A DNA stretch of 10,676 nt from NCBI GenBank assembly GCA_021161465.1, contig JAGHAM010000027.1, positions 1-10,676 of the forward strand. Direction: 5' to 3'. How positions within the stretch are numbered: the first letter of the stretch is position 1; the number at the start of each line of letters is the position of its first letter. A program made the position numbers and the translations under genes. Below the pieces are notes generated by a model. That model did no database searches. It was not told the DNA's origin and saw nothing but the letters and a program-made list of their open reading frames with translations. Shown piece after piece: positions 1 through 10,676 of this stretch. This DNA is from Candidatus Iainarchaeum sp. GTDB lineage: Archaea > B1Sed10-29 > WALL01 > JAGHAM01.

Positions 1-108
1 ATAAACTACCAAAAAAGAATGGTTTTGACGGACCGAAAGACATCAGCGCAGTCATTCCTGAGAGTGCCGGCAAGCAAACAACGCAACCACCATACCGTCT
101 GAAAGGGT

Positions 109-1689
109 TTATCTACTTATTTGATTGCATCTTTCGATAACTTCTTCATCCAGAGAGAGCAAGAATGTAGCCAGCCGAGGCCCTTGCTTCTTGCCTAGCA
201 GAACTAGGTATGCAGCTTCAAAGAACTCGCGCGGCTTCAACCCACTGTCCCCAACTATTCTCTTGAGCTGTTCTCCTAGTTCAGCAGGACTCTTAGCTTG
301 CTTTACAGCATCAGGAAGTTTACTCAATGCCTCTCTCTGCCTTTCCGAAAGGCCCTTCATGACACTATCTGGAACCTCCTCTAAAATCTTTACTCTTCTC
401 TTCTCAGGGGCATATTTCTCTGCCCAGTTCTTAGCCAGCTTGAGTCTCAATTTGACCTTCTCTATATCTCGCTGAGAAAGCTTCTTTGGGACATGCCCAG
501 TCCTCTGTAAAATTCCAATGGCTGTCTCTGTGTCAGATGCAACCTGGACCAGGTCAACGAGAAATGTGAAAGGAGGCTGGACTGGAAGCTGCCATTTACT
601 CCTTGGTCTGATTTGGCTTAGCTCATAGGCTGCAACTAGGTTTTCTTTCTCCCTATCATTGGTTGGTGTTTCCTTTCCAAAGAAAACGCGCTCTGCCAAA
701 TCGTAAGCTTCATAGTAGTTGAACACACCTTCATCAAACGGAACCTCAATTGCCCGGTTTATCTTTGGTGTGTAAATGAATCTAACTATCTCAGGTTCGT
801 ATACCTCAAGTAGCTCGCTGACTGTAAAAACATTGCCCTTTGAGGAACTCATCTTCTCCTTCTGGCCTTTTGCATACACAAATTCATACATTGGTCCTAT
901 TGGTGGCTCATGCTTGAAGACATTCTTTGATATGCGAACGCCCGTATCCCAGGAACCACCAGAGGCATGATGGTCCTTTCCAGAGCTCTCAAAATCCACA
1001 TCGTAGTGCGCCCATCTCTGAGGCCAGCACACGCGCCAGACCATTTTAGCGTTTCCCTTCTTCCTGAAGTCAAACTCTCCAGAATGTCCGCACTCGCATT
1101 TATAGCGCAGCCGATACCCACCAAGGTATTCGACACTGGTTGTATCCTTACCGCATTTTTCGCAGTAGACTCTAACGGGCATCCAGCGCTCTGATAATGG
1201 TTCCTTCCTGTAGTCGTTAAGTATTTCCCTAATCGAATCTTTGTTCTCAAGGGCTATTTTCATGTTCTCTGCGAAGGTGCATTTCTTGTATTCCTTGCTC
1301 ATCCAGATGTAGTCAGCCTCAACATCACAGGCTTTGTTTTCCTCTATGAGTTCACTGGCAAAGTGCTCGGAATAGCTCTTGTGGCATCCCCAGGGGTCAG
1401 GAGTCTCGCTAACTGGTATCCCTATATAATCCTCAGCTTCTTTCTTCCAGCTTTCTGGCACTCCGGCAGGAACCTTCCTGAACCTATCATAATCATCCCA
1501 CACGTACTGATAGCGCGCCTTCACACCAAGCTTCAGAAGCGCGCGGTAAACAAAATCTTGTGTCAGAACCTCGCGAAAATTGCCAGCATGGACAATACCA
1601 CTGGGGGTTATCCCGGACTCTACCACATATTCCTCCTTGTCAGGCTTCCTAGCCACTATCTGTTTTGCATAGCTGTCAGACCAGTGCAT
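109..1689 (-). CDS. lysS: Lysyl-tRNA synthetase, class I (archaeal type)
   Basis: Cytoplasmic enzyme that charges tRNA-Lys with lysine using ATP. The 526-residue product has the class I signatures: a HIGH-like HAGN at residues 34-37 after ITPSG, and KMSSSKG at 279-285. Between them is a four-cysteine zinc-knuckle-like insert (C176, C179, C198, C200). The C-terminal half is helical, as in class I LysRS, and the length matches the family. ATG at 1687-1689 is preceded by a purine-rich stretch (AGGGATAGGT) that may be a weak ribosome site. A TATA-like box lies about 37 bases upstream. It diverges from the calcium-ATPase gene. The matching tRNA-Lys(TTT) lies about 2.8 kb away on the same strand, probably by chance. 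Most bacteria and eukaryotes use the unrelated class II LysRS, so this gene supports an archaeal source. Identification is very secure. Confidence 0.97.
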   Translation of the reverse strand: MHWSDSYAKQIVARKPDKEEYVVESGITPSGIVHAGNFREVLTQDFVYRALLKLGVKARYQYVWDDYDRFRKVPAGVPESWKKEAEDYIGIPVSETPDPWGCHKSYSEHFASELIEENKACDVEADYIWMSKEYKKCTFAENMKIALENKDSIREILNDYRKEPLSERWMPVRVYCEKCGKDTTSVEYLGGYRLRYKCECGHSGEFDFRKKGNAKMVWRVCWPQRWAHYDVDFESSGKDHHASGGSWDTGVRISKNVFKHEPPIGPMYEFVYAKGQKEKMSSSKGNVFTVSELLEVYEPEIVRFIYTPKINRAIEVPFDEGVFNYYEAYDLAERVFFGKETPTNDREKENLVAAYELSQIRPRSKWQLPVQPPFTFLVDLVQVASDTETAIGILQRTGHVPKKLSQRDIEKVKLRLKLAKNWAEKYAPEKRRVKILEEVPDSVMKGLSERQREALSKLPDAVKQAKSPAELGEQLKRIVGDSGLKPREFFEAAYLVLLGKKQGPRLATFLLSLDEEVIERCNQISR

Positions 1690-1722
1690 ACCTATCCCTG
1701 CTATCTGTTTTCCATTTTTGGA

Positions 1723-1730
1723 TTTATAAA
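1723..1730. promoter_or_regulatory. Palindromic TATA box between lysS and the ATPase gene
   Basis: TTTATAAA is its own reverse complement. On the minus strand it lies about 37 bases before the lysS ATG, giving a predicted transcript start near 1700 and a leader of about 10 bases. On the plus strand it could drive a start near 1753 for the ATPase gene. Placement follows the usual archaeal rule that the TATA box is centred about 27 bases before the transcript start. Confidence 0.5.
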
Positions 1731-1746
1731 CTACTATCGAAAATCG

Positions 1747-1754
1747 TATAAAAG
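1747..1754 (+). promoter_or_regulatory. TATA box for the ATPase gene
   Basis: TATAAAAG starts 19 bases before the ATG at 1766 and 28 bases before the in-frame ATG at 1775. The second spacing is what a leaderless archaeal transcript beginning at 1775 would need. Confidence 0.5.
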
Positions 1755-1765
1755 TTAGATGTGTA

Positions 1766-4261
1766 ATGCAAGGGATGGCAAAACAGGAAGGCTTGAGTCA
1801 GGAGGAAGCCAGAAGGCGGCTGAAGGTATTTGGGGAGAACAAAATAGAAAAAAGAAAAAAAGAATCCCCACTAGACATGCTGATTGCCCAATTTAAGTCG
1901 CCAATAATACTGCTTCTGATTGGCGCTGCAATAATATCCATAGCATCCAACTACCACTCCCAGGAGAGTTACATAGACAGCATTATGATAATAGTTATAG
2001 TATTCGCTGCAGCGATAGCTGGGTTTGTCCAGGACTACAAAGCTGAGAAAGCTGTTGAAGCCCTGCAAAAGTTGGCAGCCCCAAAGGCGAAAGTGATAAG
2101 GAACGGTAAAAGAAGAGAAGTACTGGCGACTGAGCTAGTCCCTGGCGACATAGTGCTCATTTCAGGCGGAGATGTCATACCTGCAGACGCTGAAATTATA
2201 GAAGGATACCTAGAAGTTGACGAATCCAACCTAACAGGTGAATCAAAAGCAGTAAAGAAGATGCCTGGCGACAGAGTATTCTCCTCCACCTCGGTATACA
2301 TGGGAGAAGCAAAAGCTAAGATATACGCAACTGGTATGAAAACTGAGCTTGGGAAGATAGCTGGAAAAATGCAAGAGGTAAAAGAAAGAGAGACTCCATT
2401 CCAGTACCACATCCGAAAGTTCACCAAGAAGATTGTTGTACTGGCGCTACTCATAATCGTAGTTGTACTATTTGTTGGCTTGGGGAAATTTGGTCCCACA
2501 GAAGCGTTTTTGATTGCAGTTGCGCTTGCGGTGGCTGCAGTGCCTGAGGACCTGCCAGCAGTCATAGTCACAGCCCTGTCACTTGGCTCGAGGGATATGG
2601 CCAACAAGAATGCCTTGGTGAGGAAGCTTGCAGTAACTGAGTCCATAGGCTCTGTTGATGTAATCTGCACAGACAAGACAGGGACACTAACTAAGGGACA
2701 AATGCAGCTAACAAAGCTATGGTTGCCTAAGGAAAATAAAAAAGCAAATGAGCTCGCAGTTGAGTGCTGCTACTACTGCAATGACGCTAAAAAAATCACA
2801 AAAAATGACAAAGAAAAATACATTGGCGACGAAACTGATGTTGCCCTTAAAATGTTCTCTGTGGGGATTCTAAAGGATAAATCATTCAAGCGTTTTGAGG
2901 AGATACCCTTCAGCTCTGAGAGAGAACGTATGAGTGTAGCCTGCGAAACTAAAAATGGAAAGCTGGTCTTTGTCAAGGGCGCGCCTGAAGTTGTAGTCAA
3001 AAAATCCAGCAAAGCGCTTATAGGCGGGACTGTAAAGGACATCTCTTCCATCAAAAAGCAAATTTTGGATAAGAACAGTGAGTTCACATCCAAAGGCTTC
3101 AGGGTGCTCGCATTAGCATATAAACCTTACAAGAAGCCTATAGAGAGTAATCTGATTTTCATAGGTTTAGCTGTTTTGTCTGACCCACCAAGGGAGGAAG
3201 CTGGGGAGGCCATAAAGGATTGTTATTCTGCAGGTATACGTGTAATAATGATTACTGGGGACAATCCAAAAACAGCCAAAGCAGTGGCTGATGAGATAGG
3301 GCTTAAAACAGAAGGTGTGGTGACTGGAAACGAGCTTGACAAAATGAGCCGGGAAGAACTCTCCGAACTTCTAAACAAAGGTGTCAATATATTTGCGCGC
3401 ACAACACCCTTCCACAAGCTTACAATACTGGAAGTCCTGCAGAAGGAGGGGCACATAGTAGCCATGACTGGAGATGGTGTAAACGACTCGCTCGCTTTGA
3501 AAAAAGCAGATATTGGCATATCAATGGGCATACGGGGTTCACAGGTAGCAAAAGAGGCAAGCGATATAATCCTTCTCGATGACAACTTCGCAACAATAAG
3601 GAACGCCATCAAAGACGGCAGGAGGATATTCGACAACATAAGGAAGTTCATAGATTACCTTATGACCTGCAATGTCGCTGAGGTCGTGGTTGTCACTCTG
3701 GCCACTTTCTTTTTCCCGTACATCTTACTTTATCCTGTTCAGATATTGTGGATAAATCTCATCACAGATGGACTACCTGCTCTGGCGCTGTCTATAGACC
3801 CATCACGACCAGACACCATGAAGAGGAAACCACGTAAAAGAGGTGAAGGTATAATCAACAGGAAACTGTTGCTACTGATAGGTGGAATAGGCATCAAAAA
3901 AGCAATAATGATTCTGTCGATATTCTTGGTGACGCTTCCACTTGGAATTGATGTTGCAAGGACATCACTGTTCACTGGGTTCATCCTTTATGAGTTTGTG
4001 AGAATAGCTGTCATAAGGTACAATGAAAAGCTGGACTCCCTTAAGGACTGGTTCTCGAACAAAGTGTTGGTTGCCTCTCTGCTTGGCTCACTGGCACTTC
4101 AGCTGTTCATAATTTACACGCCAGTTTCCAAATACTTCAAAGTGGTTCCGCTTGGTGCTTATGAGTGGACAGCCCTGATAGTAGGCACACTTACCGGGTT
4201 CATCCTTGGCATAATAATCTCAGAGGTAATAGACAGAATCACAAAAGGAGAAGAGTATTAA
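1766..4261 (+). CDS. P2A-type (SERCA-like) Ca2+-transporting ATPase
   Basis: Membrane pump predicted to expel calcium at the cost of ATP. The 831 residues run in the usual order: N-terminal cation-ATPase domain; M1-M2 (about 45-90); actuator domain with TGES at 157-160; M3-M4 (about 222-275); phosphorylation domain with DKTGT (D303 is the phosphorylated residue); nucleotide-binding domain with KGAPE at 404-408; hinge motifs TGDN (497-500) and TGDGVND (568-574); then M5-M10. Side chains matching the SERCA calcium sites are all present: E261 in M4, N636 and E639 in M5, N664, T667 and D668 in M6, and E743 in M8. This argues for Ca2+ rather than H+ or Na+/K+. M4 reads PEDLP where the family usually has PEGLP. 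The nucleotide domain is compact, making the protein shorter than animal SERCA. The second ATG (1775) may be the true start because of promoter spacing. Specific substrate remains inferred. Confidence 0.93.
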   Translation: MQGMAKQEGLSQEEARRRLKVFGENKIEKRKKESPLDMLIAQFKSPIILLLIGAAIISIASNYHSQESYIDSIMIIVIVFAAAIAGFVQDYKAEKAVEALQKLAAPKAKVIRNGKRREVLATELVPGDIVLISGGDVIPADAEIIEGYLEVDESNLTGESKAVKKMPGDRVFSSTSVYMGEAKAKIYATGMKTELGKIAGKMQEVKERETPFQYHIRKFTKKIVVLALLIIVVVLFVGLGKFGPTEAFLIAVALAVAAVPEDLPAVIVTALSLGSRDMANKNALVRKLAVTESIGSVDVICTDKTGTLTKGQMQLTKLWLPKENKKANELAVECCYYCNDAKKITKNDKEKYIGDETDVALKMFSVGILKDKSFKRFEEIPFSSERERMSVACETKNGKLVFVKGAPEVVVKKSSKALIGGTVKDISSIKKQILDKNSEFTSKGFRVLALAYKPYKKPIESNLIFIGLAVLSDPPREEAGEAIKDCYSAGIRVIMITGDNPKTAKAVADEIGLKTEGVVTGNELDKMSREELSELLNKGVNIFARTTPFHKLTILEVLQKEGHIVAMTGDGVNDSLALKKADIGISMGIRGSQVAKEASDIILLDDNFATIRNAIKDGRRIFDNIRKFIDYLMTCNVAEVVVVTLATFFFPYILLYPVQILWINLITDGLPALALSIDPSRPDTMKRKPRKRGEGIINRKLLLLIGGIGIKKAIMILSIFLVTLPLGIDVARTSLFTGFILYEFVRIAVIRYNEKLDSLKDWFSNKVLVASLLGSLALQLFIIYTPVSKYFKVVPLGAYEWTALIVGTLTGFILGIIISEVIDRITKGEEY

Positions 4262-4312
4262 TCCTATCCAAAACTACCCTAATTGGCAAGAATCAAGGCG
4301 GGCCCGACGGGA

Positions 4313-4377
4313 GTCTCCACAACCTTCCAAAGGTGGAGGGCTTATAAGGGAGGAGGGAATGTGTCCCTCCTCCTTAT
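4313..4377 (-). other. 65-nt T-loop intron of tRNA-Lys (position 59/60)
   Basis: Splits the T-loop after TTCAAA; the second exon resumes with T60 and the 3' T-stem. Inside are two hairpins. The first is a long stem from TAAGGAGGAGGGA to its complement at about 4344-4357, with one unpaired base. The second closes CTCCAC with GTGGAG. Exon TTCA can pair with intron TGGA (4319-4316), giving a relaxed central helix with bulges AAA and GACT. Borders may shift by one or two bases without changing the product's structure. Confidence 0.82.
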
Positions 4378-4421
4378 TTTGAACCCGCGACACCCAGGTT
4401 AAAAGCCTGGTGCTCTAGCCA

Positions 4422-4453
4422 GTTCAGGCACAACGGCTTGCCACCGAAGCGCA
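4422..4453 (-). other. 32-nt D-loop intron of tRNA-Lys
   Basis: Pre-tRNA pairing forms a bulge-helix-bulge. The outer helix is TAGC (4463-4460) with GCTA (4419-4416). The central 4-bp helix is TCAG (4459-4456) with CTGA (4427-4424). The 5' bulge is CCT (4455-4453). The inner helix is GCGC (4452-4449) with GTGC (4431-4428), continued by CGG/CCG after two T-T mismatches. The 3' bulge is ACTG (4423-4420), one base longer than canonical. Cutting after CC and after AC removes 32 bases and leaves a normal D-loop, AGCCTGGCTA. Sequence alone would allow a shift of up to 3 bases because CTG occurs at both ends; the fold selects these borders. Confidence 0.82.
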
Positions 4454-4492
4454 GGCTGAGCTACGGGCCCACACAAAGACAACACAATGGAG

Positions 4493-4500
4493 ATTTAAAT
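4493..4500 (-). promoter_or_regulatory. TATA box of tRNA-Lys
   Basis: ATTTAAAT lies 23-30 bases before the first base of the tRNA, the standard archaeal promoter distance. The rest of 4501-4588, between this box and the winged-helix gene, shows nothing recognisable. Confidence 0.55.
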
Positions 4501-4588
4501 GCCTGTATGCTGTGCAACTTCTACGCACTCTTTCCTGCAAGGATATATCCACTGGTCTTCTAATTTAAGCGTGTTTTCATTTATATCT

Positions 4589-4861
4589 TTATAGCCCAAA
4601 CGATTCCATAAATCTCTTCATTCTCCTCAGCTCAGAAAGCAGTTGGAACCCATCCTTCGTCATGGTTATAAATGTCTTATTGCCTTCCACATCCTCCACA
4701 ATGATACCCTTCTCCTTTAACTCCGATAAGTATGACTTCAAGAGGTCATAAGATAGATTTGCCTTATACATAATATGTGTTGGTTTAGCATGATTATCCT
4801 CTTTTTGTATGGCTTCCAGTATGGAAACTATGACCTCAGCGCGGTCCCTTCTTCCCCTCAT
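4589..4861 (-). CDS. Small winged-helix DNA-binding protein
   Basis: The 90-residue protein is essentially one winged-helix domain. Helix 1 is at about 5-19, helix 2 near 26-33, a recognition helix at about 37-50 (SYDLLKSYLSELKEKG), a beta wing at 53-68 and a closing helix at 70-88. It resembles the archaeal HTH_45-type family of single-domain transcription regulators, often found near membrane proteins; the family call is from memory of the pattern. Its ATG overlaps the stop of the upstream membrane-protein gene (ATGA, 4858-4861), so the two are translated together and probably act together. No metal site or ligand domain is visible, so any signal would have to come from a partner. DNA target unknown. 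Confidence 0.85.
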   Translation of the reverse strand: MRGRRDRAEVIVSILEAIQKEDNHAKPTHIMYKANLSYDLLKSYLSELKEKGIIVEDVEGNKTFITMTKDGFQLLSELRRMKRFMESFGL

Positions 4862-5538
4862 GATTTGTTCACCATGAAAAAGTCATACAGCAGCAGCAGG
4901 TACCCAACGAGCTGCAGGAATTCGCCTATGACATACATATCCAAGTGGATTATAGTAAGTAGGAAAAATACCTGGCTAAGCAACAACACAGCAAATGAAA
5001 ACACGATGACCTTGGTGCTCGACTCGCCCTTCTGTTTGTAGTGGTGGTAATAGTAACCTACGAGCATAAACAATAGGATAGCCATCGTTATGTGAAATAC
5101 CACAAAGATGTAATAACTAAAAAAGGTTGTTAAAAGTATGAAGTAAAAAAGCAGATAAACCAGATTCCTCGACTTCTCCTTCTGTGTTATTAGATAAAGG
5201 CTTGAAAAAGCACCTATCATGAGTAGCCTGAACAGGAAATAGCCAATAGAGTATATTATTTCAGACTTGTACTGATAATTAACGAAATGTAAAGTGCTGC
5301 CAATCTGGATAACCCTTAAGACATGGTAGTATATTGTGAAATTGGTCAGGATTTTAAAGATAAAGGCAACACCAATCAGTAGAAAGATAACAGAGAAATA
5401 CCTGTGTTTCCTCTCATGAGACACTTTGAAGAACTTGTTTGCATAGTAGGCTATCAAAAAACAAACTAGAATACTAAATATCTCAAAGATAATATCGACA
5501 CCATAAAACCATTTTGGGCTAAACACGTACTGTAGCAT
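4858..5538 (-). CDS. Seven-helix membrane protein of unknown function
   Basis: The 226 residues are almost entirely hydrophobic, with seven predicted transmembrane segments at about 11-33, 48-72, 95-118, 126-147, 148-165, 175-196 and 203-222. Short basic loops follow helices 1 (HERKHR), 3 (QKEKSRN) and 5 (HHYKQKG), which the positive-inside rule places in the cytoplasm. No transporter motif, kinase domain or catalytic residues are seen. It is the first gene of a coupled pair with a winged-helix protein, so a sensor or regulator role is plausible but only inferred from context. ATG at 5536-5538 lacks a ribosome site, and a TTAAAAAT box sits about 28 bases before it, fitting a leaderless transcript. 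Confidence 0.85.
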   Translation of the reverse strand: MLQYVFSPKWFYGVDIIFEIFSILVCFLIAYYANKFFKVSHERKHRYFSVIFLLIGVAFIFKILTNFTIYYHVLRVIQIGSTLHFVNYQYKSEIIYSIGYFLFRLLMIGAFSSLYLITQKEKSRNLVYLLFYFILLTTFFSYYIFVVFHITMAILLFMLVGYYYHHYKQKGESSTKVIVFSFAVLLLSQVFFLLTIIHLDMYVIGEFLQLVGYLLLLYDFFMVNKS

Positions 5539-5562
5539 ACAAACACTTTTGGTCCCAGCCAG

Positions 5563-5570
5563 TTAAAAAT
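5563..5570 (-). promoter_or_regulatory. Likely TATA box of the membrane-protein/winged-helix pair
   Basis: A T-rich box (ATTTTTAA on the minus strand) is centred about 28 bases before the ATG at 5538, which has no Shine-Dalgarno sequence. Together these suggest a leaderless mRNA. Confidence 0.45.
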
Positions 5571-5610
5571 ACTACTGGAACATAGTTCTATATCTTTGTT
5601 GCGAAAGGCG

Positions 5611-5618
5611 TTTATAAA
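5611..5618 (+). promoter_or_regulatory. TATA box upstream of a candidate RNA
   Basis: TTTATAAA, palindromic, predicts a plus-strand start near 5641-5645. No plus-strand protein gene follows, but a potentially structured region does. Read on the minus strand it would lie too far (about 75 bases) from the membrane-protein gene to fit that start directly. Confidence 0.45.
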
Positions 5619-5640
5619 CGAAACCAGATAGATAAGACAG

Positions 5641-5796
5641 CGGCCTATAAGCTGCACAACAAAAGGAGGTGGTTGACAAGATGGGATAATGGATAGGAAA
5701 AGCTAATCCTGCGAGGGTGTGGTCCCCTAACACTACGAGTTCTGTAAACCTCGCACCACCCTCGCTCCCCTCATATCTACCCTCTCAGGCCTTTCT
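5641..5796 (+). ncRNA. Candidate structured non-coding RNA, unidentified
   Basis: This is most of the 296-base gap between the membrane-protein gene and the HAD gene, and no ORF fits. GGCCT (5642-5646) can pair with AGGCC (5787-5791), followed by TTTCTT, as a closing stem. GCGAGGGTG (5711-5719) pairs perfectly with CACCCTCGC (5757-5765). Within that, CGAGTT (5736-5741) pairs with AACCTCG (5747-5753), leaving one base bulged and a five-base loop. GGAT/ATCC (5691-5694 / 5706-5709) may add a small hairpin. A TATA box lies at the right distance upstream. It contains GGAGGTGG (5665-5672) followed by ATG-GGA-TAA, a two-codon frame. I see no C/D boxes, no tRNA T-arm, and no RNase P or SRP signature. 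It could also be a remnant leader of a lost gene. Confidence 0.35.
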
Positions 5797-5834
5797 TGAC
5801 CGAAAATATAGACGATTGCTTGGAGTGAAGATAA

Positions 5835-6527
5835 TCACCTACTCATTGCTCCCAGCACTTTATTGATATCCTCAAGGTCTTCAAAAACAAAATCTGCACC
5901 TGCTTTCCTTAAATCCTCAGGAGAGCAGTCACCAGTTGCAACAGCTATGGTCTTGATGTTTCTCACACCAGAATTCTTGGCTGCTTCGACATCCCGGATG
6001 GTGTCCCCAACCACAAAAATCTTGCCTGGTTTGAAACCTTCCTCCTTTGCTCTCTCCACTGCCAACCTGACTAAATCTGCCCTGTTTGGGCTGTCACTGC
6101 CAAATGCACCTACCTTAAAATAGCTCCACAAATTGACTCCTTCAAGCTTTCTTTTTGCTATCGGCTTTAGGTTTCCAGTGACCAATCCAAGCATGGTGCC
6201 TTCTCTCTGGAGTGTTTTTAGGAGCTCTCTAACCCCACCAAGCACCTCAAATTCTCCGCTTCTAACGTTCTCATTGAAAAATTCCCCCATACGTTGCATG
6301 CACTTCAGGAGGCCCCCCTTTATCTCACTGTCACTGAATCCATGTAATTTCAAAACTTCAATCAGTATCTGTTGGTCAGTCATGCCACGATGGTCCACTA
6401 GGTCAACATGGGTATCAATCCCATAAACTTCCTTTATAGCTATGGAAAATGCCATCCTCTGGGTGCTTGGGCGAAGCTTGCTCACCAAGAGTGTCTTGTC
6501 TATGTCAAACAAAACAAGCGCGTTCAC
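5835..6527 (-). CDS. HAD-superfamily phosphatase, phosphoglycolate phosphatase-like
   Basis: Soluble 230-residue hydrolase. Motif I is DIDKT (D8 nucleophile, D10 acid/base). A helical C1-type cap covers about 16-90. Motif II is LVTGN (T117). Motif IV is GDTIRD (D175, D179). The position where many HAD enzymes have the motif III lysine reads FGSDSPNRADLV, with R149 as the likely basic residue, a variant seen in phosphoglycolate-phosphatase-like members. The substrate cannot be told; small phosphomonoesters are typical. It starts with GTG (6525-6527) overlapping the serS stop (GTGA), so it is translationally coupled to serS; the choice of start rests on that overlap. The link to seryl-tRNA synthesis is not obvious and may be simple co-transcription. 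Confidence 0.88.
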   Translation of the reverse strand: MNALVLFDIDKTLLVSKLRPSTQRMAFSIAIKEVYGIDTHVDLVDHRGMTDQQILIEVLKLHGFSDSEIKGGLLKCMQRMGEFFNENVRSGEFEVLGGVRELLKTLQREGTMLGLVTGNLKPIAKRKLEGVNLWSYFKVGAFGSDSPNRADLVRLAVERAKEEGFKPGKIFVVGDTIRDVEAAKNSGVRNIKTIAVATGDCSPEDLRKAGADFVFEDLEDINKVLGAMSR

Positions 6528-7789
6528 TTTCCTAACTCCTTTATCCCATTCATGTACGGCACCAGCACCTTTGGCACTTTTATCGTGCCTTCCTTCGTCT
6601 GGTAATTCTCAATTATGGCAAGCATAGTCCTGCTTGTAGCTATGGCCGTGCTGTTCAGAGTATGGACAAGCTGTTTGTCACCGCCCTGGCTGCCGTACTT
6701 TATGTTCAATCGCCTGGCCTGGTAGTCTGTGCAGTTGCTGCATGAGACTGCTTCTATGTATTTCCCCTGCCTCGGAGACCACACTTCCAAATCATACTTT
6801 TTAGCTGCTACGGTGCCTATGTCACCAGTGCAAACGTTAACAATGCGATAAGGAAGTTCCATCTTCTGGTATAGGCTCTCCGCATTATGAATCAGTTCTT
6901 CATGGATAGCCCATGACTCCTCAGGCTTGCAGAAAACAAACTGCTCAACCTTGTCAAACTGGTGCATTCTAAACAGCCCACGGGTATCAACACCGTGCCG
7001 CCCAACTTCCCTCCTGAAGCTAGGGCTGATGCCACAATACTTTAAAGGCAGGCTTTCAGTGGGCAGAACATCATTCATATACATAGCTGCTATCGGGTGT
7101 TCACTCGTTGCTATCAAGTACATGTCCTCCTCATCTATCTTGTACATAACATCCTCAAAATCATGCAAGTCAGTGACACCCTCATATGCTTTCCTGTTCA
7201 TCATAAATGGAGGCAATACTGGCGTAAAGCCTTTTTTTGCCAACTCATCAATAGCGAATCTCTGTAAGGCAAAATCCAGCAAAGCTAATCCACCCTTCAG
7301 GAAAACAAAACCACTACCAGCAACCTTGGCTGCCTGCTCAAAACTGGCCAATCCAAGCTTCTCTATAAATTCGCCGTGAACCTGCACCTCCACCTTCTTT
7401 GGCTTGCCCCATCGCCGAACTTCAACATTATCGGAGTCGTCTTTGCCAATCGGAACTGACTTGTGCAGCAGATTTGGGGAACGCATAAGAAGCTCATCGC
7501 GTTTGCTCTTTAGCTCACGAACCTCTTTTTCAAGGCTTCGCATATCAGCATCGAGTTTTCTCATCTCACTAATCTCTTTCTCAGCGGGCTTCCGAGCGCG
7601 CTTCAGCCCGGCTATCTTCTCAGAAACTACATTTTTCCTGTGCCTCATCTCATCGAGCTTCTTCAAGCCAACACGCCATCGCTTGTCCAGGTCGATTATT
7701 TCATCCACCAGCTTCGTTGACTGACCACGTTTCTTCAAATCGGCGCGCACTATCTCTGGATTCTCACGAAAAAGCCGTATATCAAGCAT
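6524..7789 (-). CDS. serS: Seryl-tRNA synthetase (class II, standard type)
   Basis: Charges tRNA-Ser with serine; the product also feeds selenocysteine synthesis where that exists. The 421 residues start with the characteristic long antiparallel coiled-coil arm (about 27-105) that holds the tRNA-Ser extra arm, then the class II core. The core has the motif 1 region near 187-200 (GFTPVLPPFMMNRK), TSEHPIAA at 228-235, motif 2 with FRRE at 258-261, and motif 3 around 379-397 with R387. It is the common SerRS type, not the rare methanogen type with its different N-terminal domain and active-site zinc. ATG at 7787-7789 has no ribosome site, and a TTTAAA-rich box is centred about 27 bases upstream, suggesting a leaderless mRNA. 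The next gene overlaps its stop. Confidence 0.97.
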   Translation of the reverse strand: MLDIRLFRENPEIVRADLKKRGQSTKLVDEIIDLDKRWRVGLKKLDEMRHRKNVVSEKIAGLKRARKPAEKEISEMRKLDADMRSLEKEVRELKSKRDELLMRSPNLLHKSVPIGKDDSDNVEVRRWGKPKKVEVQVHGEFIEKLGLASFEQAAKVAGSGFVFLKGGLALLDFALQRFAIDELAKKGFTPVLPPFMMNRKAYEGVTDLHDFEDVMYKIDEEDMYLIATSEHPIAAMYMNDVLPTESLPLKYCGISPSFRREVGRHGVDTRGLFRMHQFDKVEQFVFCKPEESWAIHEELIHNAESLYQKMELPYRIVNVCTGDIGTVAAKKYDLEVWSPRQGKYIEAVSCSNCTDYQARRLNIKYGSQGGDKQLVHTLNSTAIATSRTMLAIIENYQTKEGTIKVPKVLVPYMNGIKELGK

Positions 7790-7811
7790 GATTATCTTCT
7801 CTTCTGGGAAG

Positions 7812-7821
7812 TTTAAAAAAA
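7812..7821 (-). promoter_or_regulatory. TATA box of serS
   Basis: TTTTTTTAAA on the minus strand is centred about 27 bases before the serS ATG, inside the 38-base gap after the upstream HAD gene. It gives serS its own promoter even though the upstream gene runs the same way. Confidence 0.5.
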
Positions 7822-7827
7822 TATGGT

Positions 7828-8469
7828 TTACAATGATGTAAATGTGGAAAAAGACAGGTTTGCCAAACGCTCAACCACCAAGTCAGCGGGATAACTCTTG
7901 GTTGTATCCTTGGCCAGCGCTATGCACTTCATGCCTGCCTTTTTCGCGGCGAGCATGCCATTAATGCCATCCTCAATCACGACACAATTCCTTGGTAGCA
8001 CCCCTAACCTCTTTGCTGTCAGGATGAAAACATCCGGCTCTGGTTTACCTCTCTCCACTTCATGTGAACTTGTGACGGCATCGAACAAGTTCTCAATCCC
8101 CAGCTCACTCAAGACAAGCTTGATGAATTCTGGTGGGGATGCCGATGCGACCCCTAGCTTAAGATTGTGGTTTTTGCATTTGTTTATCAGCTCAAGCGCG
8201 CCTGGGATTGGTTGAATACCCCTGCGCGCTAATTCCAACATCATGTCCCACTTTTCTCTTATAATTGCATCAATGTCATCAAGGTGAACACAATATTTTC
8301 TAAACAAACCTTCAAAGAACTCCTTATCAGAAACTCCTGTGTAACTCTCTATTTCCTCATGCGTAACATCTATTCCGTGTTTCCTCAAAAGTGTCATCTC
8401 CACTGTCTCGTGGAACTTTTGTGTATCTGAAATAACTCCATCCATATCAAAGATTACTGCTCTTAACAT
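7828..8469 (-). CDS. HAD-superfamily hydrolase, beta-phosphoglucomutase/phosphatase-like
   Basis: Soluble enzyme of 213 residues from the preferred ATG. It has motif I DMDGV (D8, D10), a helical C1 cap (about 15-85), motif II GVASAS (S109), motif III K142 in RGKPEPD, and motif IV IEDGINGMLAAKKAG (E166, D167). The GKPxPD and EDxxxG pattern is that of HAD-IA variant 3 enzymes such as beta-phosphoglucomutase and sugar- or glycol-phosphate phosphatases; the substrate cannot be read from the sequence. The frame also allows a GTG start two codons earlier (8475). I prefer ATG at 8467-8469 because MLRAVIFDMDG is the usual N-terminus. It is followed by serS after 38 bases and diverges from the small ORF at 8519. 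Confidence 0.9.
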   Translation of the reverse strand: MLRAVIFDMDGVISDTQKFHETVEMTLLRKHGIDVTHEEIESYTGVSDKEFFEGLFRKYCVHLDDIDAIIREKWDMMLELARRGIQPIPGALELINKCKNHNLKLGVASASPPEFIKLVLSELGIENLFDAVTSSHEVERGKPEPDVFILTAKRLGVLPRNCVVIEDGINGMLAAKKAGMKCIALAKDTTKSYPADLVVERLANLSFSTFTSL

Positions 8470-8485
8470 AACCACCCACTGATAA

Positions 8486-8496
8486 TTTTTTATAAC
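8486..8496. promoter_or_regulatory. TATA region shared by two divergent genes
   Basis: TTTTTTATAAC lies in the 49-base gap between the HAD gene and the small ORF. On the plus strand its centre is about 28 bases before the ATG at 8519, the ideal spacing for a leaderless start. On the minus strand it is about 22 bases before the HAD ATG, slightly close, so that transcript may begin inside the first codons or use another signal. Confidence 0.5.
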
Positions 8497-8518
8497 TCCA
8501 GTTACTTATTGTTAGACT

Positions 8519-8689
8519 ATGCAATACAAACACCTTAAGCTTCTACACGAAATGATAGATAAGAACATTAGCCAGAGCAAGATAATGCACTATTTCCAGT
8601 TGGAGGGGTATTCCGAGGAAGAAGTGTTGAAGGAAATAAATGACTACGAGGAAGAAAAAACTCTGAAGAGTGAAGATGAAGAGCAGTAA
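8519..8689 (+). CDS. Small acidic protein, 56 residues, unknown
   Basis: ORF from ATG 8519 to TAA 8687-8689. It begins MQYKHLKLLHEMIDKNIS. The middle, KIMHYFQLEGYSEEEVLKEI, looks like two helices, and the tail is rich in Glu, Asp and Lys. I do not recognise a family. Support for a real gene is the TATA box exactly 28 bases before the ATG (leaderless), the absence of competing plus-strand frames, and sensible helical, charged composition. Against it are its short length and the lack of a ribosome site. The SEEEVLKEI helix after a tyrosine could resemble a small helix-turn-helix or protein-contact module, but this is a guess. It ends 18 bases before the 3' end of tRNA-Phe, which runs toward it. 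Confidence 0.6.
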   Translation: MQYKHLKLLHEMIDKNISQSKIMHYFQLEGYSEEEVLKEINDYEEEKTLKSEDEEQ

Positions 8690-8721
8690 ATCACTAGTTC
8701 TTGAAGGTGGGACGGGTGGGA

Positions 8722-8786
8722 TTTCCCAACCACAAGCGGATTGCGTAACAATCCCCTGCAGGTTTAGAAAGGGTGCAACCCTTCTT
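8722..8786 (-). other. 65-nt T-loop intron of tRNA-Phe (position 59/60)
   Basis: It begins in the A-run after TTCAAA. It contains a hairpin AGAAGGGT/ACCCTTTCT with one unpaired base, a CCTGCAGG palindrome, and a perfect six-pair hairpin GGATTG/CAATCC with loop TTACG. Exon TTCAA can pair with TTGGG (8729-8725), leaving bulges AAA and AAAT, a relaxed bulge-helix-bulge. The first 50 bases are identical to the tRNA-Gly intron and the last 15 differ. Exact borders can shift by up to about three bases because A's flank both ends. Confidence 0.82.
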
Positions 8787-8795
8787 TTTGAACCC
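8737..8795. repeat. 59-bp exact direct repeat, copy 1 (tRNA-Phe intron)
   Basis: Identical at every base to 8936-8994. It covers the 5' 50 bases of the intron plus the adjoining T-arm exon bases (GGGTTCAAA side). Identity ends at the fourth T-stem base on one side, where the two tRNAs differ, and inside the intron on the other. Confidence 0.95.
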
Positions 8796-8871
8796 ACGAC
8801 ACCCAGGTCTTCAGCCTGGCGCTCTCCCAGTCTGAGCTACCGCCCCTTGGCATTTTTTTAGTTTTTCTCTC

Positions 8872-8879
8872 TTATTAAT
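8872..8879 (-). promoter_or_regulatory. TATA box of tRNA-Phe
   Basis: ATTAATAA on the minus strand is centred about 30 bases before G1 of tRNA-Phe. It lies in the 65-base spacer between the two tRNA genes, suggesting tRNA-Phe has its own promoter. Confidence 0.45.
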
Positions 8880-8925
8880 GCTTCTGTCATCGCTTTCTAC
8901 TATTGGTGGAGTGCGACCGCCGGGA

Positions 8926-8985
8926 ATTCCACCTACGGATTGCGTAACAATCCCCTGCAGGTTTAGAAAGGGTGCAACCCTTCTT
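8926..8985 (-). other. 60-nt T-loop intron of tRNA-Gly (position 59/60)
   Basis: Exon TTCA (8991-8988) pairs with TGGA (8931-8928) to give a 4-bp central helix. The 5' bulge is AAA (8987-8985) and the 3' bulge ATT (8927-8925), both three bases as in the canonical motif. Cutting after the second base of each bulge gives these borders exactly. Its first 50 bases match the tRNA-Phe intron. The 3' 10 bases are its own, and AGGT there can pair with ACCT inside the intron. Confidence 0.85.
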
Positions 8986-8994
8986 TTTGAACCC
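8936..8994. repeat. 59-bp exact direct repeat, copy 2 (tRNA-Gly intron)
   Basis: Identical to 8737-8795, offset by 199 bases. The tRNA bodies on either side (Phe and Gly) are clearly different, so the repeat is not simply a recent tandem duplication of one gene. Confidence 0.95.
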
Positions 8995-9070
8995 GGGTTA
9001 TCAGCTTGGAAGGCTGAAGTCCTACCAGACTAGACTACGGTCGCGTAATCTTTGTTTTTAGAAATCCCTA

Positions 9071-9078
9071 TTATTAAA
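9071..9078 (-). promoter_or_regulatory. TATA box of tRNA-Gly
   Basis: TTTAATAA on the minus strand is centred about 30 bases before G1 of tRNA-Gly, just after the stop codon of the transglutaminase-like gene. Confidence 0.45.
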
Positions 9079-9082
9079 CTTT

Positions 9083-10675
9083 TTAGGTTTTTTTAATCTT
9101 GATGAGCCTGTGCCACCTGCCCCTCTCTTCAAACGGGCGTTTTGGCCTGTTCACCAACGGATAGATTAATGCTATGAAAACCAAGACAACAACAACCAGT
9201 ATCACAAAAGAGTACACGGGGTACCTGTTTATGTATTTACCAACCACTACCAAGAACTTTTGCTCAACTGGTGGTGGCTTAACAACACGGGCGCTTCCAG
9301 ATTCTGTTATGGTTTTACCGTCATACGTTACTGCAACAGTATAAGTATAGTTCCCTGGCTCTGCACTGAATATGAAAGCAGCTGTTTTGCTCTCACCTGA
9401 ATTCAACTCAAGTTGCTTTTGTTTCACACCGACTGGTGTGATAACCCTTAAGTTAGGTATCAAATCGGTATTCCCTGTGTTCATAACAGTTACATTCATA
9501 TAAAGCTTCCCTTGTTCTCCCCTTGTAAAGACCTCCTCGATCTCTATGGGTTTTTCCTCTTCTATGTTTAGAGATGGGTTGACTGTTATTGTGAAATTTT
9601 TATCTACATCTGGTCCTCTGAAAAACAGTACGTATTCATCCATCTCACCATATGGTGCAAGAAATTCCCAGCTGACACTTTTTGTTTCGCCGGGACCCAC
9701 AATAACTGGTCTTCTAAACGGTCCAATACTGGTTATGCCCCTGCCCTTCTGTACCAGATAAGTAGGTATCACGATGGATTTTCCCTTGTTTGTTATCAGT
9801 GCGTCCACTGAGAACTTCTGTCTTGGTGCCAGAACATCATCTGAAATACTCACCTGGACATCGAGAGGTAACTCAAAGGGTTTTGCTGAGTAATCCTCAA
9901 CCTCCGCATTTTCTGAGCGGCCGAGGTAACCAGAAACGCTTGGTCCTGAGTAAAGTTTAACTGAAAGAGCATTTTTGGTTCCAACTTCGAGGTATGTAGG
10001 GTCAACGGGTACCCACTTTCCTGAAACTAAACTCTCGGCCCATGCATGACTAACCCAACCTCTCCCAGTATTGGCAACCCCTACTACAATCCTAGTTGGT
10101 ATGCCAGCAGAGCGGGCCAGTGCTGCGTATAAGTTTGCATACTCTGTGCATGAGCCTCTTCTATCTCTCATGACATCATTGCTAGTTATCATATCTTTGT
10201 TTGGCTCGTAAGTAATATGCTCATTGACCCAAACAGCAAGGCGCTTTACTGCCTCAAGGGTGGAATTAGTATCACCAATAATCCTTAAGGAGAACTCTCT
10301 TGTGCTTTCATCAACAATTATTAGGCTACTATTTCCCAGAAATTCTGAATAGTTATCAGTGTTTTCTTCTGGGAAAGGCTCATCCCAAAAGACGGGTTTT
10401 GACCCATCAACAAAAACATTGAATCTAAAGGAATAATTCCCAGTGGTATTAACAAGCTTATTGCCATCTCTATCATCAAAAATCTCTAAATCAGAAGGGT
10501 ATTTGACCTGCTGCCTTTCATCATTTATTGGTAGGTAGATTGGCCTTCCATTTGATTGGCCATCCAAAACAAGAGATATCTCAGCACTGCCAGCGTTTAT
10601 AGGTGAGAGAGCGATACTCATCACTGGCAAGAGTAAAAACAAAGCCGAAACCACCAGGACACAACACTTTCTCAT
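9083..10675 (-). CDS. Secreted, membrane-anchored transglutaminase-like protein
   Basis: The 530 residues begin with a signal peptide (basic MRK, then hydrophobic to about residue 23). A transglutaminase-like cysteine-protease fold spans about 140-232, with the triad C176 (GSCTEYA), H210 (SHAWAE) and D225 (VPVDPTY). Two beta-rich stretches (about 270-366 and 375-465) look like CARDB or immunoglobulin-type adhesion modules. A single transmembrane helix (about 486-508) is followed by a strongly basic cytoplasmic tail (RPKRPFEERGRWHR). The enzyme part therefore faces outside. Eight N-X-S/T sequons (N76, N80, N108, N115, N137, N360, N394, N442) fit archaeal surface glycosylation. Archaeal members may act as peptidases or crosslinkers; the reaction is unknown. 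The ATG is one base from the window edge but is followed directly by the signal peptide, so it is probably the true start. Confidence 0.88.
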   Translation of the reverse strand: MRKCCVLVVSALFLLLPVMSIALSPINAGSAEISLVLDGQSNGRPIYLPINDERQQVKYPSDLEIFDDRDGNKLVNTTGNYSFRFNVFVDGSKPVFWDEPFPEENTDNYSEFLGNSSLIIVDESTREFSLRIIGDTNSTLEAVKRLAVWVNEHITYEPNKDMITSNDVMRDRRGSCTEYANLYAALARSAGIPTRIVVGVANTGRGWVSHAWAESLVSGKWVPVDPTYLEVGTKNALSVKLYSGPSVSGYLGRSENAEVEDYSAKPFELPLDVQVSISDDVLAPRQKFSVDALITNKGKSIVIPTYLVQKGRGITSIGPFRRPVIVGPGETKSVSWEFLAPYGEMDEYVLFFRGPDVDKNFTITVNPSLNIEEEKPIEIEEVFTRGEQGKLYMNVTVMNTGNTDLIPNLRVITPVGVKQKQLELNSGESKTAAFIFSAEPGNYTYTVAVTYDGKTITESGSARVVKPPPVEQKFLVVVGKYINRYPVYSFVILVVVVLVFIALIYPLVNRPKRPFEERGRWHRLIKIKKT

Positions 10676-10676
10676 C

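Follow-up and report, generated by a model that had tools for sequence, protein, structure and literature searches.

The origin and spread of archaeal tRNA introns is an open question, and the published cases rest mainly on the comparison of intron sequences. The closest described system is that of the Thermoproteales, in which near-identical introns occur at canonical and non-canonical sites of tRNAs of different specificity. This was taken as large-scale intron transposition (Fujishima et al. 2010, via PMC4033280, PMC4090602) and, according to the relevant passages of the latter two papers, the mechanism is thought to act on DNA. Here we describe tRNA introns of Candidatus Iainarchaeum sp., a DPANN archaeon (assembly GCA_021161465.1). 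Starting point is contig JAGHAM010000027.1, positions 1 to 10,676 (10,676 nucleotides, hereafter the window), in which tRNA-Phe(GAA) and tRNA-Gly(UCC) carry nearly the same intron within the T-loop. We consider it probable that such introns, located at position 59/60, are protein-spliced introns of the bulge-helix-bulge (BHB) type and that a family of them was copied among many tRNAs, mostly by recombination or gene conversion at the DNA level. The process is of the same kind as the intron spread in Thermoproteales, from which order it is mainly known so far.

As far as the relevant parts of the cited papers go, both systems have near-identical introns across tRNA specificities and intron gain without duplication of tRNA genes in common. 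However, Thermoproteales employ an (alpha beta)2 splicing endonuclease, while our source genome belongs to a DPANN lineage in which only an alpha-type EndA was found. In addition, a single site is filled in 32 of 36 tRNAs here, composite arrays of repeated modules occur, and empty sites are demonstrated by conserved synteny within a taxonomic family. The Asgard lineages Atabeyarchaeia and Freyarchaeia are comparable, since 92-95% of their tRNA genes possess introns, often several and often at non-canonical positions. Yet they belong to an unrelated phylum, and copying of introns between tRNAs is not reported in the available parts of that study (PMC11291895). Micrarchaeum ARMAN-1/2 are likewise ultrasmall DPANN archaea with tRNA introns at unusual positions (Fujishima 2011, Hirata 2012, via PMC4033280, PMC6379350). 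According to the passages that deal with them, however, they possess a three-unit epsilon2 endonuclease whose special loop explains its broad specificity, whereas we found only a 170-aa alpha-type enzyme. For tRNA-Thr of Caldiarchaeum, furthermore, an intron was described that some closely related genomes have and others lack, and a recombination model was put forward, but that case concerns one tRNA and a large integrating element, not tiny gene-less introns in most tRNAs (PMC3293823). Within the open-access literature searched, the following are new: the DPANN lineage, one T-loop site that is nearly saturated, empty sites recognized by synteny, introns of mosaic make-up and an endonuclease type that does not match the introns. 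We claim no priority on single features. A stepwise study of intron spread thus becomes possible: gene order provides empty sites, two families compete for one position and mosaics give a hint toward the mechanism.

T-loop introns in the window and throughout the genome

Both genes are encoded on the minus strand. tRNA-Phe(GAA) (8708..8846) comprises the acceptor GGGGCGG/CCGTCCC, the T-stem GTGGG/CCCAC and the anticodon GAA, while tRNA-Gly(UCC) (8912..9044) comprises the acceptor GCGACCG/CGGTCGC and the T-stem CCGGG/CCCGG. If folded, both form 7/7 acceptor pairs and 5/5 T-stem pairs across the insert. The Phe intron (8722..8786, minus, 65 nt) is inserted between TTCAAA and T60, and the Gly intron (8926..8985, minus, 60 nt) occupies the same site 59/60. 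If spliced after A59 and before T60, both tRNAs would have the mature loop TTCAAAT, identical to the loop of intron-less orthologues. Window positions 8737-8795 equal 8936-8994 exactly over 59 nt, which comprise the exon bases GGGTTCAAA and 50 intron bases (core at 8737..8786 in Phe and 8936..8985 in Gly, both minus). The core is followed by a specific 3' tail of 15 nt in Phe (8722..8736, minus) and 10 nt in Gly. An earlier note, made from the window alone, had claimed this 59-base repeat in tRNAs with differing bodies and its partition into 50 shared intron bases and specific ends of 15 and 10. Exact comparison and folds confirmed both. The same note described the tails as specific ends that pair with or abut the exons. 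Specific they are, yet their difference is not imposed by pairing, as only about 4 nt pair and the exon bases TTCA are equal in Phe and Gly. A third tRNA, Gly-GCC, is located about 2 kb away beyond a contig break (contig C30, which a 25-bp overlap joins to the window end). Its intron is exactly that of Gly-UCC and thus the identical core resides in three neighbouring tRNAs.

Standard tools hardly recognize these genes. ARAGORN detected neither tRNA-Phe nor tRNA-Gly in the window, and Rfam at the gathering threshold revealed no tRNA there; only Gly scored, just under the cut-off. A pattern search for D-arms performed no better than a reversed control. The Rfam scan of the window yielded no intron family either, and with only 60-65 nt the inserts do not qualify as group I/II introns or as homing-enzyme elements. 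We therefore relied on a tRNA finder written for this purpose, which pairs T-stem and acceptor stem across an insert. Applied to stretches around matches of four baits (the intron sequence, a model of the intron 5' hairpin, the Rfam tRNA model and a family-B probe), it delivered a catalogue of 34 complete and 2 contig-broken tRNA genes from the source genome (G000), a 0.98 Mb draft in 40 contigs that is about 93% complete. These 36 genes are a lower bound, as tRNA-Asn and tRNA-Cys were observed outside the catalogue. In the genes with the most interruptions, anticodons stem from a simple script and might be incorrect in a few cases; that of Pro-GGG was corrected manually after its relative in G001, the nearest relative compared.

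The intron 60-mer gave 22 matches in the source genome at E <= 0.001 (best 9e-26), which lies far outside what chance would give, and nearly all of those examined fall into tRNA T-loops. In total, T-loop inserts are present in 32 of the 36 catalogued genes. Among the 34 complete genes, 30 comprise at least one further insert in the 5' part. This adds up to at least 62 introns in 36 tRNA genes; of the 217 archaeal genomes treated in the tRNAscan-SE 2.0 paper, the richest has 71 introns, distributed over 46 genes (PMC8450103). Most T-loop inserts fall into family A (AAGAAGGGTTGCACCC..., 14 tRNAs) or family B (ATAAGGAGGAGGGACAC..., 12 tRNAs). Apart from these, there is a third group of smaller size, and Val tRNAs have short inserts. 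An exact stretch of at least 25 nt in common with the insert of another tRNA was found for 22 of the 32. Pairs of different tRNAs with such matches number 55, of which 12 reach at least 40 nt, and the longest match comprises 77 nt (Gly-CCC and Ile-UAU). Hence the search for further carriers suggested in the earlier note found many. Copying of the intron between different tRNA genes is strongly supported, while a private exchange of Phe and Gly is not, since Gly-GCC has the same intron and 32 of 36 tRNAs are affected.

Some T-loop inserts are composites of up to about 320 nt, consisting of repeated modules that are also common between tRNAs. Several contigs end within composite introns of about 190-320 nt (L011, L014, L016, L017, L019, L020), which leads to assembly breaks. 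The T-loops of tRNA-Val(GAC) (L171:341-256, minus) and tRNA-Val(UAC) (L182:553-446, minus) contain 13 and 16 extra bases, which might be remnants, miniature introns or just enlarged loops. The T-loop of tRNA-Cys(GCA) (L180, G000:C10:763-845) is odd as well, with TGCGACTGCGCAAGCAAAT instead of the usual TTCAAAT. Another common intron element (about CCGCAAAATCGG...GCTTTGTG) is found in the D-loop or anticodon loop of Ala-CGC, Gly-GCC, Glu-CUC, Ser-GCU and Thr (L168, L170, L172, L264, L169).

Intron gain at syntenic empty sites

For comparison we used 19 genomes of one phylum, namely the source genome and 18 relatives of its class. G001 belongs to the same taxonomic family, while G002, G004, G005, G007 (assembly WALL01, DPANN group archaeon isolate S014_61_esom) and G009 share the order and G012 represents another family of the class. 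The Rfam model RF00005 detects only 8 tRNAs in the source genome vs 13-44 in the other 18 genomes, so the heavy T-loop invasion is specific to the source lineage. With 8 found and at least 36 present, this is also a warning for the annotation of DPANN archaea, whose tRNAs standard finders can miss for the most part.

G001 retains the gene order Lys-CUU, Gly-GCC, transglutaminase-like gene, Gly-UCC, Phe, and so do, with small changes, G002, G004, G005, G007 and G009. In the source genome all four tRNAs of this cluster possess a T-loop intron, three of family A and, in Lys-CUU, a composite of family B. No T-loop intron was found at any of the four in G001, nor at those cluster tRNAs found in the other five genomes; the orthologous loops read TTCAAAT, TTCGAAT or TTCAAGT. 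The body of Gly-UCC is nearly the same as that of its intron-less G001 orthologue, with the intron precisely between A59 and T60, and tRNA-Phe has syntenic orthologues in the order as well. Judged from these comparisons, the T-loop introns of the cluster are evidently gains in resident genes, which happened after the split from the nearest relative compared. They are not products of gene or assembly duplication, because the sites of syntenic relatives are empty and each tRNA has its own orthologue. Gene duplication is hence refuted, and the preference of the earlier note for copying holds, since the introns are identical although the tRNA bodies are not homologous, the orthologous sites are empty and carriers are numerous. 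Its proposal to look for relatives without the intron met with empty sites in all testable relatives of the order. One might also suspect an assembly artefact or a duplicated contig, given a draft in 40 contigs of which several end inside composite introns. However, this is hardly conceivable, since each tRNA has a body and an orthologue of its own and 59 nt are shorter than the usual read length; a duplication at the window itself was rejected on the former ground for both genes.

A mobile element with a tRNA-targeting integrase, as proposed for tRNA-Thr of Caldiarchaeum (PMC3293823), could have brought the introns as well. After all, tRNA genes serve integrases as attachment sites and one intron gain has been explained in this way. 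Yet the inserts of 60-65 nt are gene-less, the flanking genes are those of the relatives, no partial tRNA repeats adjoin the genes and a 24-mer at the 5' junction has no exact match in a viral contig collection. Thus we give very little credence to such an element.

Alternatively, T-loop introns could be ancestral, lost in relatives and kept alike in the source genome by concerted evolution. Indeed, G001 and G012 have introns related to family A in the T-loops of other tRNAs, so that the family predates its gain by the cluster, and both G000 and G001 have T-loop introns in Leu-GAG and Ile-GAU. However, under vertical inheritance introns would have to be lost precisely and in parallel from four syntenic tRNAs in no fewer than six genomes. 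Family B was found in no other genome of the class. Furthermore, the T-loops of Ala-CGC and Arg-CCU comprise family B in the source genome but family-A-like introns in G001; thus the site was re-used. We consider inheritance with such losses quite improbable and retain gain by copying. Mean intron identity within G000 (0.67), compared to 0.61-0.63 to G001 and G012, and the average of 0.71 for two same-tRNA intron pairs of G000 and G001 are weakly informative and were not used as evidence. Besides, G012 has its own T-loop intron variant in at least seven tRNAs (Glu x2, Leu, Pro x2, Lys, Val; L137, L144, L149, L152, L155, L158, L161).

Mosaic introns and the mode of copying

Mosaic introns are present. 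Up to ...GCAATCCG the introns of Phe and Gly agree in every base, while the next bases of the Phe intron, GCAATCCGCTTG, formed by the end of the core and the Phe-specific tail, match the introns of Met, Ser and Thr. Since this tail equals those introns without being forced by pairing, a recombination joint is indicated. In addition, the inner-hairpin variant GATTGTTACGCAATC of the Phe intron is found in Pro-GGG, whose 5' hairpin differs. Within family A, the tail AGGTG(G/A)AATT is common to four tRNAs with T-stem CCGGG (three Gly and Arg-GCG), and other T-stems go along with other tails. Such mosaics would be the expected trace of short conversion tracts between resident introns and favour gene conversion at the DNA level.

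Copies might have moved between different sites, too. tRNA-His contains two copies of the element, one in the anticodon loop and one in the T-loop, with 96.6% identity over 29 nt, and among relatives it is located in the anticodon loops of Asp (G001) and His (G002). Ectopic jumps between anticodon loop and T-loop have probably occurred as well, and the element could plausibly derive from an intron of the anticodon loop.

This distribution is also what one might expect if introns moved as RNA: an excised, perhaps circular intron would be reversed into other pre-tRNAs, copied to DNA and recombined into the gene. The exact insertion at one splice site in many tRNAs would fit, and so would the element at the anticodon-loop splice site of tRNA-His. 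However, no RVT_1 protein, and hence no reverse transcriptase, was detected in any of the 19 genomes. Insertion of whole introns would not yield mosaics with joints inside a hairpin, and the intron loss typical of conversion by cDNA is not seen, as most carriers keep their other introns. Consequently, retro-copying finds no support and we regard movement at the RNA level as unlikely. The earlier note had left the choice between gene conversion and reverse splicing with recombination; in the light of the mosaics the former is the better fit, and nothing supports the latter.

Recombination between DNA copies might thus be envisioned as follows. Every tRNA would offer the T-arm motif GGTTCAAAT and the intron would bring its own pairing partner, for which reasons an incoming copy would be tolerated at the site with function retained. 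Most of the spread and likeness would go back to recombination or gene conversion among T-arms as well as among resident introns, and some copies to ectopic jumps from anticodon loop to T-loop or back. The identical core of Phe and Gly would most likely represent a conversion tract from the Gly to the Phe intron, or the reverse, that ends inside the intron because the T-stems of both tRNAs differ.

Splicing signals, endonuclease and neighbouring genes

Exon bases 54-57 (TTCA or TTCG) pair with the intron 3' end at 4/4 positions in 41 of 45 inserts from three genomes, while about 1.6 would be expected from background. The paired intron bases are directly followed by a bulge of 3 or 4 nt and then by T60. 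Moreover, both partners covary: G57 in the exon usually goes along with C in the intron and A57 with U (permutation of base 57, p = 5e-5; Fisher p = 5e-6 if the bulge is chosen blind to base 57). This pairing is the predicted central helix of a BHB substrate with the T-stem as outer helix. The endonuclease would cut at this helix and the ends would then be sealed. Within the intron, three base pairs of the first (5') hairpin show two-sided changes, and pairing between the 5' and 3' parts is predicted for the introns of G012. Several of the intron-bearing tRNAs of G012 have nearly the same 86-nt T-loop, and in the variant of this genome base 57 and its intron partner change together.

Only one splicing endonuclease gene was found in the source genome. 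It encodes an alpha-type EndA of 170 aa (G000:C16:15155-15634, minus; L196), which aligns almost gap-free to the alpha4 enzyme of M. jannaschii, while a model of the N-terminal domain revealed no second subunit in this genome. G001 and G012 comprise a single PF01974 match each, i.e., one alpha-type gene. According to reviews, efficient cleavage of relaxed motifs is confined to (alpha beta)2 and epsilon2 enzymes (PMC6379350). Thus, with relaxed motifs next to a lone alpha-type gene, either the enzyme is broader than this type suggests or a diverged subunit escaped detection. Should a lone alpha-type endonuclease indeed cut them, the correlation currently accepted between type of enzyme and set of introns would have to be revised. 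One might even speculate about a protein-free, self-spreading intron of 60 nt that carries the complement of the universal T-loop (TTCR) and would thereby leave any recipient tRNA spliceable, saturates tRNAs by gene conversion and has all of the at least 62 introns cut by a plain alpha-type endonuclease. This bolder version appears possible, yet we hold it as tentative.

Several points weigh against protein-spliced BHB-type introns that spread by gene conversion. First, the best fit of the 3' bulge is 3 nt in 29 of 45 inserts but 4 nt in the other 16. Second, two hairpins replace the intron-side helix of a strict BHB motif in families A and B. Third, the sole endonuclease found resembles the narrow-specificity enzyme of M. 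jannaschii, and we infer the cutting and sealing of T-loop introns from their sequences. Fourth, 59 nt are short for classical gene conversion. Finally, the relatives compared belong to the same family at closest and none to the same genus, which bears on when Phe and Gly exchanged the intron and in which direction.

Among the neighbouring features, the window contains tRNA-Lys(UUU) (4299..4470, minus). Its T-loop intron (4377-4313) is of family B, a family unrelated to the Phe and Gly introns, and a further insert interrupts the 5' part of the gene in the D-arm region. This tRNA gene adjoins genes for a P-type ATPase and a class I-type LysRS, followed by SerRS and two HAD phosphatases. The transglutaminase-like membrane protein gene (9083..10675, minus) serves as synteny anchor of the tRNA cluster; 25 bp of its start are shared with the end of contig C30. 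In a named relative (L096), tRNA-Lys, LysRS, SerRS and the transglutaminase-like gene are located all together.
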